From assembly GCF_025153455.1 (NCBI RefSeq), contig NZ_JANZNT010000001.1, positions 1,426,001-1,490,000 on the forward strand: a DNA stretch of 64,000 nucleotides, in the 5' to 3' direction. Of this stretch, positions 28,778 through 31,739 are shown one piece after another (within the stretch, counting starts at the first letter, position 1; every line of letters begins with the position of its first letter). The notes below the pieces were generated by a model, which ran no database searches, was not told the origin of the DNA, and saw nothing but the letters and a program-made list of their open reading frames with translations. The position numbers were made by a program, and so were the translations under genes. The stretch is from Sphingomonas sp. BGYR3. Lineage in GTDB: Bacteria; Pseudomonadota; Alphaproteobacteria; Sphingomonadales; Sphingomonadaceae.

Positions 28778-29161
28778 TCAGCGACAGCGCACATCGCCCC
28801 GGTCGACCTGCTGGCCCAGCACGGCACCCGCCGCCCCGCCCAGGATCGTGCCGATCGTCTTTGACCCGCCCGGTGCAATGATATTGCCCAGCACACCGCC
28901 GGCCACGCCGCCGATGATCAGGCCGCTGGTGCCATCGTCGCGGCGGCAATAATAGCGCCCGTCGCGCCCGCGATAGATCGCGTCGTTGCGGCCCAGCCGC
29001 CGCTCGGAATAGCGCGGATCGTCGCGATAATAGCGGGCGGCATCCCAGTCGCCCCGGTCACCGGCATATCCGGGACCATAACCATAGCCGTCGCCATATT
29101 GATTGCAGGCGCCAAGCGACGCCGCCGATACCGCGATTGCCGCGGCCAGCACCTTGTTCAT
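28778..29161 (-). CDS. Glycine-zipper lipoprotein
   Basis: A 127-residue protein with a signal peptide ending in a lipobox (ASLGAC), then a Tyr/Asp/Arg-rich stretch. A 17-kDa-antigen/OmpA-like glycine-zipper segment follows (GLIIGGVAGGVLGNIIAPGGSKTIGTILGGAAGAVLGQQVD) and the C-terminus is DVRCR. Two Cys (YYCRR and the C-terminal VRCR) may form a disulfide. The frame is open up to 29206, but the ATG at 29161 gives the proper signal peptide. The next gene upstream is a paralogue. Confidence 0.75.
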   Translation of the reverse strand: MNKVLAAAIAVSAASLGACNQYGDGYGYGPGYAGDRGDWDAARYYRDDPRYSERRLGRNDAIYRGRDGRYYCRRDDGTSGLIIGGVAGGVLGNIIAPGGSKTIGTILGGAAGAVLGQQVDRGDVRCR

Positions 29162-29186
29162 GTCGATGTCTCCTTGGTGATGGATG

Positions 29187-29222
29187 CAAAACGGGCGGGA
29201 AGCCATTTGGCTCCCCGCCCGT
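29187..29222 (-). terminator. Intrinsic terminator of the second glycine-zipper gene
   Basis: On the minus strand, ACGGGCGGGGAGCC pairs with GGCTTCCCGCCCGT (29191-29222, one G-T pair) around AAAT, followed by TTTTGC. It ends transcription from the gene at 29245-29559 and separates it from the paralogue downstream. Confidence 0.8.
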
Positions 29223-29244: not shown

Positions 29245-29559
29245 TTAGCGGCAACGCGAACCGGAACGTTCGATCTCGCGGCCGGCGACTGCACCGGCAG
29301 CGGCGCCGAGCAGCGTACCAACCGTACGGTCGCCGCGGGTGTCGATCGTGCGACCGACCAGCGCGCCTGCCACACCACCGACGACCAGACCGGTCGTGCC
29401 ATCGGGCTTGCGGCAATAGCGGCGACCATCACGACCGCGCCATTCGCGATACTTGTAGCGACCGTCGCGTGCCTCGGCATGGGCATCGGGGGTCGGGATC
29501 ACAGCGGCGGTCGGCAGGGCAACGGCGGCGGCGACAGCGGCAAGAATAAGGTTACGCAT
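29245..29559 (-). CDS. Glycine-zipper periplasmic protein
   Basis: A 104-residue protein with a cleavable signal peptide (LILAAVAAAVALPTAAVIPTPDAHA) without a lipobox. Its second half, GRDGRRYCRKPDGTTGLVVGGVAGALVGRTIDTRGDRTVGTLLGAAAGAVAGREIERSGSRCR, aligns closely with the neighbouring lipoprotein, including both Cys and the glycine zipper. The pair looks like a tandem duplication whose copies went to different anchors (soluble versus lipidated). Function is unknown. Confidence 0.75.
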   Translation of the reverse strand: MRNLILAAVAAAVALPTAAVIPTPDAHAEARDGRYKYREWRGRDGRRYCRKPDGTTGLVVGGVAGALVGRTIDTRGDRTVGTLLGAAAGAVAGREIERSGSRCR

Positions 29560-29702
29560 GGGTCTACTCCCTTCTAAATCTCGTTACGGGCAACAAACGC
29601 CCGATCTGGACGAAGGTTGCATGAACGGAATGAAAGAAATGGCGGAATTCAGCCGTTTTTCTTTCCGAACCGTTGAAAGGGACAATGGCGGGGTGCGCTT
29701 TT

Positions 29703-30125
29703 ATGGTCGATGAATGGGTTCGTCAGCATTCGTTACAGCCGCATCCGGAGGGCGGATGGTACCGTGAGACGTGGCGAAAGAGCGGCGAACCGAACGAACG
29801 GGCCGCCGCGACCGCGATTCTCTATGCCCTGGATGGCGGCGGCAAATCGCATTGGCACCGCGTCGACGCCGATGAGCTATGGTTGTGGCACGGCGGATCG
29901 CCGCTGCGGCTGGCCGTCGCGCCCGACGAAAACGGTCCGGTGCAGCGCATCGTCCTTGGCAATGATCCCGCGCATGGCTACCAGCCGCAGCACATCGTGC
30001 CCGCCGGCTGGTGGCAATCGGCAGAGGCCGGGCCGCACGGCGCGCTAGTGAGCTGCATCGTCGTGCCGGGGTTCGATTTTGCCGGTTTCGACCTGGCCCC
30101 GCCCGGATGGCAGCCAGCGGGATAG
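29703..30125 (+). CDS. DUF985 cupin-domain protein
   Basis: A 140-residue cupin of the DUF985 type. The start region LQPHPEGGWYRETWR and the cupin motif SHWHRVDADELWLWHGGSPLRLAV are the family marks; the C-terminal GALVSCIVVPGFDFAGFDLAPPG is also typical. The reaction is unknown. ATG 29685 is an alternative start, but 29703 gives the usual distance to the LQPHPEGG motif. The 143 bases upstream hold a small inverted repeat, CGGGC-N7-GCCCG (29587-29603). Confidence 0.82.
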   Translation: MVDEWVRQHSLQPHPEGGWYRETWRKSGEPNERAAATAILYALDGGGKSHWHRVDADELWLWHGGSPLRLAVAPDENGPVQRIVLGNDPAHGYQPQHIVPAGWWQSAEAGPHGALVSCIVVPGFDFAGFDLAPPGWQPAG

Positions 30126-30170
30126 TTATCCCCGTTATCCACAGGACTCACAGTCACGCGGGCGCGAATC

Positions 30171-30744
30171 ACCCTTGGTGCGACTCGCATCGAGTGAGAC
30201 CATCCAAGGGTCAGAGCGGCGATGGAGCATCGAGAAATCGAAGCGAAATCAACGAGTTGACGGCTTGATATCCAATGCTGGTGGCGCAAGCAAACCGCAT
30301 GATGGTGCCAAGTCGAACCGGACGGACGGTTCCAGACGCGCAATCGCCGGGTGCAAGCCAGGCCGATGCCCAGGGAACGGAAAGAAAGGTTCAGCCACAG
30401 GCAGCCGAAAGGGTGCATGGGGCGGGTTGATGAAGGGCAGGTGGTTCGCTCGGCCGAAGATGCGGCAACGCAAGAGGCGGACGAGGGCACTGGCGGCTCC
30501 ACTCTCAGCCAGAAGCGGACGGAATGGCGAAAGCCGGAAGGTCCGCTGGCCATCGGTAAAACCGACGCGGGCTCGTCCGATCCCGCGCCGGAACAGCGAT
30601 GACCGAAACGCCGGTCCAATGCGGACCCCCCTGGGGGTCAGGCGGGACAGGCGATGCCGCCCGGTATCCGGCAGTTCCGCCCGAAAGGGTGGGACGACAG
30701 GATCAGGCGACATGGGGGGCTGGCAGCGATGCCGGCCCCCTTTT
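30171..30744 (+). ncRNA. Candidate structured RNA with its own terminator
   Basis: The interval 30126-30785 has no recognised gene. Several local helices are visible on the plus strand. ACCCTTGG (30171-30178) pairs with CCAAGGGT (30204-30211) around an inner ACTCG-CAT-CGAGT. GAACCG/CGGTTC pairs at 30315-30332. AGCGGAC (30514-30520) pairs with GTCCGCT (30541-30547) around two purine-rich 5-base strands and an inner GGC-GAAA-GCC with a GNRA tetraloop. The interval ends with a strong intrinsic terminator. A 99-codon open frame (30303-30602) exists, but its third-position GC (about 71 %) is lower than expected here. The 5' end is not defined. It might instead be a long 3' region of the cupin mRNA. 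Confidence 0.35.
30715..30744 (+). terminator. Strong intrinsic terminator with no gene directly upstream
   Basis: GGGGGCTGGCA (30715-30725) pairs with TGCCGGCCCCC (30730-30740) around GCGA, with one G-T pair, followed by TTTT (30741-30744). It points to the plus strand; on the minus strand no T-run follows. The nearest plus-strand gene ends 590 bases upstream, so it marks the end of an otherwise unexplained transcript. Confidence 0.8.
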
Positions 30745-30773
30745 GATCCGGCGGACCCTTTTGATTCGGCCGA
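30738..30773. repeat. Tandem 18-base repeat after the terminator
   Basis: CCCTTTTGATCCGGCGGA (30738-30755) is followed at once by CCCTTTTGATTCGGCCGA (30756-30773), differing at two positions. The first copy supplies the T-run of the terminator. It lies just before the corA-like stop codon. Confidence 0.8.
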
Positions 30774-30785
30774 CCGTTGACCGGA

Positions 30786-31739
30786 TCAGTCGCGCAACCA
30801 GTGCCGCCGCGCGAAATAGGCCGCGATCGCCACCGCAAGGATGACGCAGATGCCGACCACGCCCCAAAATGCCCAGGGTTCGCGGGCATAGGGGATCCCC
30901 TCGACATTCATGCCAAGCAGGCCGGTCAGAAAGGTGAGCGGCAGGAACACCATGGCGACGATGGAAATGATCAGCGCGCGCTGGTCGATCTGTTCGGCGC
31001 GAAGATCGGTCAGCGTTTCATGGAGCAGCGCAGCACGTTCACGGATCGCCTCAAGCTCCTCCGCCATCCGCGCTGCACGGTCGGCCGCCGCCGCCAGATG
31101 CAGCCGGTCATCCTCGGCCAGCCAGTCCGCAGGCAACGCCGCCAGCCGCTCAAGCGCATCGCGCTGCGGCGCCAGGAACCGGCGATAGCCAATGGCACGG
31201 GCGCGCGCCCGGCCCACCGCGCGGCGCAACGCGAACAGCCGGTGCTGGTCGATCCCCTCCTCGCAATCATCCAGCTCGTCGCCCAGATCGACGACCACGG
31301 GATCCAGCTCTGCGGTGATCGCATCGGCAAAGGCCGCAATCAGGTCGCCCGCATCCTTGATCTCGCCCGCCTGAACCTCGGCGCATACGGCGTCGATCGA
31401 GTTCATCGGCAGCCGGGCGACGGAAATCACGCGGCATCCGCGAGCATAGATTCGGACCGAGGCAAAGGGATCTGACATCGATGCCGTATCCGGCGACAGG
31501 CCGCGCAGGTTGACCAGCGCGCCGTCCCCTACGGCCTCGCAGCGCGGTCGGGTTTCGGTCGCGGTCAGGGCATCGATCGCGGCGTCGGGCAGGTGCGCCC
31601 TGCCCTGAAGCCAGGTCAGGGTATCGGCATGATCTCGGTCCAGATGCACCCAGATCAGCGATCCCGTTGCCGCCAGCGCGGCATCGCGGTCCATCGCGTG
31701 AACCGCCCCGCCCGCATCGACGACCAGCGCGTGGGTCAT
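30786..31739 (-). CDS. CorA/ZntB family divalent cation transporter
   Basis: A 317-residue protein with a large cytoplasmic N-terminal domain and two C-terminal membrane helices: ALIISIVAMVFLPLTFLTGLLGMN (about residues 250-273) and AFWGVVGICVILAVAIAAYFARRHWL. The pore-signature GMN is present, followed by VEGIP. That loop is closer to ZntB-type zinc transporters than to Mg2+ CorA (GMNxxxMPE). Transported ion and direction are uncertain. It starts in the stop of the dehydrogenase gene upstream (ATGA) and is the last gene of the argH operon. Confidence 0.85.
   Translation of the reverse strand: MTHALVVDAGGAVHAMDRDAALAATGSLIWVHLDRDHADTLTWLQGRAHLPDAAIDALTATETRPRCEAVGDGALVNLRGLSPDTASMSDPFASVRIYARGCRVISVARLPMNSIDAVCAEVQAGEIKDAGDLIAAFADAITAELDPVVVDLGDELDDCEEGIDQHRLFALRRAVGRARARAIGYRRFLAPQRDALERLAALPADWLAEDDRLHLAAAADRAARMAEELEAIRERAALLHETLTDLRAEQIDQRALIISIVAMVFLPLTFLTGLLGMNVEGIPYAREPWAFWGVVGICVILAVAIAAYFARRHWLRD

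Follow-up and report, generated by a model that had tools for sequence, protein, structure and literature searches.

Between a cupin gene (DUF985; 29673-30125, plus strand) and a gene for a CorA-type transporter (30786-31739, minus strand) of Sphingomonas sp. BGYR3 lies an interval, 30126-30785, that raises the question of what, if anything, it encodes (positions refer to the window, that is, the whole 64,000-nucleotide stretch of DNA analysed). A first-pass annotation had found no recognised gene there and had proposed either a stable non-coding RNA unlike any type it recognised or a long structured 3' end to the cupin mRNA. The first proposal is strongly supported by conservation, covariation, a conserved terminator and a lack of both coding signal and Rfam match, whereas the second fails against a conserved promoter of the RNA's own and the retention of the RNA in many lineages that have no adjacent cupin. 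What the interval encodes is a large, folded non-coding RNA, and its transcript is predicted to span 30210-30744 on the plus strand (about 535 nt). Its end is the terminator, and its start is placed at about 30210 by promoter spacing, at the first base of helix P1 and 6-8 nt past a -10-like element. Together with its upstream sites, the self-contained gene would cover 30135-30744 and very probably specifies a large structured RNA particular to the Sphingomonadaceae. Such an RNA is apparently undescribed; no sphingomonad RNA of this kind was found in a literature from which subscription journals were mostly missing. Two adjacent glycine-zipper 2TM genes also occur in the window (28778-29206 and 29245-29559, minus strand), the second of which is often the upstream neighbor of the RNA in relatives, even where the cupin is absent.

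That the interval has no protein gene is borne out by its mode of evolution. Of the indels that separate close relatives, 95% have lengths indivisible by three, and the mismatches are free of codon periodicity. The two open frames tested, covering both strands, had no Pfam match. Known RNA classes fare no better: Rfam 15 gave nothing convincing in the window at gathering or relaxed thresholds, and when 20 homologous loci were searched, no family matched the RNA, the sole match being a neighboring tRNA. RNase P RNA (RF00010) and 6S RNA (RF00013) of the source genome are encoded elsewhere (C1:600641-601035 and C1:592999-593156), and neither tRNA nor tmRNA was found in the window by ARAGORN or Rfam. 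One candidate identity was rejected. The Bradyrhizobium sRNA BjrC68 (RF02353) aligns with the 3' end of one divergent member (L193) at 25.8 bits, but this lies below the gathering score of 39, the likeness resides mainly in a GCAA-looped terminator, and a single tested member matches.

Relatives of the element extend well beyond close strains. In five congeners, a plain DNA search of 60 related genomes returned fragmentary matches to both interval ends, with order and orientation preserved, and in four of the five the same cupin precedes them. Their comparison gave a common anatomy consisting of DnaA boxes, the string CTTxGxGCGACTCG-N7-TGAxAxCAT, a GAAA-tipped rod, a hypervariable middle and a GC-rich terminator. 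Among 295 congeners, 87 contain the pattern CGACTCG-N-TGANANCATC, nearly always singly, and its reversed control matched once. A stricter version run over 84,980 species genomes found 71 stretches, mostly in Sphingomonas, Hephaestia, Sphingobium and Stakelama, with matches scattered in unrelated phyla at about the number expected by chance. Matches outside the sphingomonads (such as in Nocardioides and Halomonas) were taken as chance, judged by their number and not individually; L031, L037 and L047 were likewise set aside as chance matches, and terminator-only or DnaA-box-only matches in five genomes (G008, G017, G029, G032 and G050) as unrelated loci. Covariance models were built from 29 sequences (R1) and, after refinement, from 74 (R2). 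At E <= 0.001, they detected the 5' domain in 27 of the 45 congeners sampled. At least ten genera have it, all in a single family that the named matches (Sphingomonas, Sphingobium, Hephaestia and Stakelama) identify as Sphingomonadaceae, with no match at this threshold in other families of the order. About 60% of the congeners sampled carry the RNA, as a single copy, the remaining 40% or so having either lost it or diverged past the model. In a draw of 289 genomes across the Alphaproteobacteria, the source genome was the sole match, three other members of the family in that draw being matchless as well, and across 399 genomes from the order, the promoter pattern by itself matched in 45, the control in about four. 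When 20 weak-scoring members were inspected by eye, nearly all had upstream DnaA-box-like sites and a similarly built promoter, and most had a strong terminator even where the RNA body could hardly be aligned; in the clearest exception, L186, no DnaA box is obvious and the terminator is missing. In genome G618, two R2 matches lie about 2.6 kb apart on opposite strands (C1:1041887 and C1:1044574), the weak second one being a possible second copy.

The RNA is organised as conserved ends around a free middle, and the compensatory base changes that mark a structured non-coding RNA are found at both ends. The 5' rod (30210-30261) comprises P1 (30210-30214/30257-30261), P2 (30221-30223/30248-30250) and a GAAA-capped tip (30230-30241); it covaries on alignments A1 and A3, and relatives fold alike. 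It is followed by hairpin H2 (30275-30300; ATGC-T-GGT-G-GC-GCAA-GC-AA-ACC-GCAT), with the family consensus GGUGCC-tetraloop-GGAAACC, in which 93% of cells are paired on A3 and CG and GC pairs replace one another. In the 5' alignment of 72 distinct sequences, which was fitted to the structure, both partners have changed in 22 of 23 pairs, 84.7% of cells are paired versus 70.0% after shuffling and 28-40% with slid partners, and the covariation score is 0.402 versus 0.181. The sequence-only alignment A1 agrees, with 82.4% of cells paired versus 71.7% (slid, 26-38%). After a variable middle (30301-30560), hypervariable among relatives in both length and sequence, comes the 3' domain (30561-30713; ACCGACGC ... 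GCCGCC ... GGCGACAT), defined by alignment A2 and covariation, of which the source genome carries one of the more divergent copies. Aligned by sequence only, the 3' domain and terminator have 86.7% of cells paired versus 78.8%, with 19 pairs changed on both sides. The full-length source RNA is more stable than its shuffles (z = -5.0; other members, -1.9 to -6.8). Total length ranges from 270 to 790 nt among relatives, an average of eleven hairpins is predicted per RNA, 325 of 606 loops are GNRA or UNCG, and 43% of unpaired bases are A. A long-range helix between the 5' domain and the 3' end gave a permutation p of about 0.01 uncorrected for relatedness; it is weak and not claimed. In many loci (e.g., L024 and L046), a conserved CCCTTGCCGG loop that is absent from the source genome lies between covarying arms of the 3' domain, and the motif CCGGYGAC occurs there twice.

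The helices cited as evidence in the first-pass annotation are not those that carry this result. The nested 8- plus 5-bp hairpin at 30171-30211 overlaps the promoter, lies mostly upstream of the predicted start and is not conserved, its 8/8 complementarity being unique to the source genome (3-6 of 8 in 28 relatives). The hairpins at 30315-30332 and 30514-30547 do appear in the minimum-energy fold, but they belong to the variable middle and are specific to this genome rather than general to the family. Strong covariation was instead found in the 5' rod, H2, the 3' domain and the terminator, and the first three of these had been overlooked, as had the DnaA boxes (30126-30143) and the GANTC/GcrA-type promoter. 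The terminator it had described at 30715-30744 is real, conserved and covarying. This intrinsic terminator (plus strand; GGGGGCTGGCA-GCGA-TGCCGGCCCCC-TTTT, with a GNRA loop) has 99.7% of stem cells paired in the sequence-only 3' alignment, and a strong terminator is present in 78 of 88 loci versus 31 of 63 control segments; a consensus scan missed it because the run has only four T. Right after the stem, an 18-bp tandem direct repeat (30738-30773; CCCTTTTGATCCGGCGGA / CCCTTTTGATTCGGCCGA, 89% identical) doubles the T-run.

The promoter was the unexpected part of the gene. A putative -35 element TTGGTG (30175-30180), within a CTTTG/CTTGG string conserved in A1, and a putative -10 element GACCAT (30198-30203), conserved as CANCAT/GACCAT, are separated by a 17-nt spacer that opens with CGACTCG (30181-30187), which contains the CcrM site GANTC (30182-30186) within the extended motif of GcrA (as the reverse complement of YGAKTCG). 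A consensus sigma-70 scan of the stretch found no promoter, as the -10 element is not TATAAT-like. In one genome (G511), GANTC has moved by one base with the outer spacing unchanged, which is consistent with genuine -35 and -10 elements. GANTC is present just after the -35-like box in all 92 distinct loci, a total that is partly by construction, because the queries behind most loci contained CGACTC; the weight therefore rests on the variants (three GAATC and one GATTC). With C in 88 of 92, the site could also be an extended core promoter element. CGACTCG is not rare in itself, having five copies in the window, which is below expectation, and the argument for it therefore rests on positional conservation. 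Upstream lie a 9/9 DnaA box, TTATCCACA (30135-30143), which starts 47 nt before the GANTC site and whose exact sequence occurs once in the 64-kb window, and a DnaA-box-like site, TTATCCCCG (7/9; 30126-30134), for which relatives have equivalent boxes in the same register. Among the 92 loci, 88 have DnaA boxes (at least 8/9 to TTATCCACA) in the 100 nt upstream, compared with 0.7% of background blocks; the boxes lie mostly 38 and 47 nt before GANTC and, in another group, 56 and 66 nt before it. The boxes entered the query for the first handful of loci only, and they, the 3' domain and the terminator were absent from the CGACTC queries that found most loci. In four loci of genus g31 (L187, L189, L192 and L195), the box is reversed (CTGTGGATAACT) and preceded by a GTYCTCCATNTTGTCCAC element. 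Genome G367 has the promoter pattern twice on one contig (C2:51968 and 96613) as identical one-mismatch copies, perhaps a mobile or duplicated promoter.

These are features expected of a promoter regulated by DnaA, with boxes at conserved spacing, and of one controlled by GcrA/CcrM. Work in Caulobacter and Brevundimonas has established both the need for GANTC methylation in GcrA binding (PMC3667746) and the extended motif of GcrA (PMC7987155). As in the promoters of that regulon, GANTC lies here within YGAKTCG at the promoter, and the source genome encodes both GcrA (C2:57121-57768) and, from C2:141523 onwards, a RAMA-domain methylase of the CcrM type. The difference is that PMC7987155 compares described targets that are protein genes, whereas in the sphingomonads a predicted GcrA site would serve an RNA gene with phased upstream DnaA boxes. 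We regard control by DnaA and GcrA as probable. DnaA at about -60 to -75 would act on the polymerase from upstream, while GcrA on the CcrM-methylated CGACTCG inside the -35/-10 spacer would license the promoter, so that together they would tie transcription to replication and methylation state and the RNA would be made in a cell-cycle window. Such timing, suggested by a promoter with sites for the replication-timing machinery, is reasonably likely. Beginning at the base of the 5' rod, a transcript of GNRA/UUCG-capped rods and purine-rich linkers that finishes in a GNRA-looped terminator would be a stable RNA, and it may act in trans, most likely with the conserved domains at its two ends binding protein and the middle as a free-running spacer. 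Given hairpins capped by tetraloops, ends that are conserved and a middle that is free to vary, our judgement favors protein binding over mRNA pairing, although at about even odds. On this sequence evidence, a structured RNA timed by replication or the cell cycle and acting in trans is the probable overall reading.

Other explanations have to be weighed against it. The same gene might produce a base-pairing regulatory RNA acting on mRNAs, in the manner of Caulobacter CcnA, which regulates ctrA and gcrA translation (PMC8959179). The conserved, apparently single-stranded CCCTTGCCGG loop of many members would suit such a role, but it is missing from several other lineages in addition to the source genome, most hairpin loops are closed tetraloops ill-suited to pairing, and the body evolves very fast, which makes this a rather unlikely alternative. 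A housekeeping-like, constitutive RNA, for which CGACTCG and the upstream boxes would be merely core promoter letters and no cell-cycle control, accords with the preference for GACTC over any GANTC, and growth-rate-controlled promoters can likewise be rigidly conserved. It is nevertheless improbable, since DnaA boxes are not core promoter elements and yet keep a near-fixed register, single or tandem, and since four lineages retain GANTC despite a changed middle base.

Three further readings were weighed. Conserved DnaA boxes might denote a DNA element first, either a site of DnaA titration or reactivation or an origin-like sequence, with transcription incidental, and other bacteria do have DnaA-binding loci away from oriC. 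However, only one to three boxes are present, in phase with the promoter, and compensatory changes in RNA helices and a conserved terminator also speak against a DNA element, so this reading is quite improbable. Identity with oriC itself is ruled out because parS, beside gidA, gidB and parA, is at C1:1.803 Mb and the element at 1.456 Mb, about 346 kb apart; sampled GC skew was too noisy for placing the origin. The idea that the cupin mRNA has a structured 3' untranslated region here gains some appeal from the cupin lying directly upstream on the same strand in many Sphingomonas lineages and two Sphingobium loci, but the RNA is retained in other lineages where no cupin is adjacent, and with its own conserved promoter the RNA is very unlikely to be such a region. 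A small protein-coding gene on either strand is hardly credible: open frames reach 233 codons, but they arise mechanically, lack Pfam matches and are contradicted by frame-breaking indels, the absence of codon-position bias and the RNA covariation.

For the replication-timed structured RNA that we prefer, the nearest functional parallel is CcnA (CCNA_R0094), a cell-cycle non-coding RNA of Caulobacter crescentus, 182 nt long, located inside oriC and provided with a CtrA box (PMC8959179). Both are alphaproteobacterial non-coding RNAs whose genes bear sites for cell-cycle master regulators, DnaA boxes included. The sphingomonad RNA differs in being longer (270-790 nt), in lying about 346 kb from parS rather than within oriC, and in having sites of the GcrA/CcrM type and for DnaA in place of CtrA control, no CtrA box (TTAA-N7-TTAA) being present in the window; the two are not homologous by any feature tested. 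In architecture it recalls OLE, ROOL and GOLLD, large lineage-specific structured RNAs of hundreds of nucleotides with no assigned role, with which it shares high structure, conserved ends and a variable interior. Unlike them, it lives in other hosts under other promoters, and it has no sequence or Rfam model match to any of them.

The wider proposal, somewhat short of an even chance, is that a novel class of large RNA runs through the whole of the Sphingomonadaceae, transcribed from a promoter answering to DnaA and GcrA/CcrM and reporting or enforcing replication state as a ribonucleoprotein with some partner. If so, a major environmental bacterial family would carry a large and hitherto uncatalogued RNA connected to two regulators linked with replication, an RNA that keeps its promoter, ends and terminator while its body changes almost past recognition. 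Cell-cycle control in the Alphaproteobacteria has so far been worked out largely through Caulobacter proteins, and this gene would offer a concrete, single-copy RNA with defined promoter sites for asking whether an RNA joins the cell-cycle circuit of sphingomonads.
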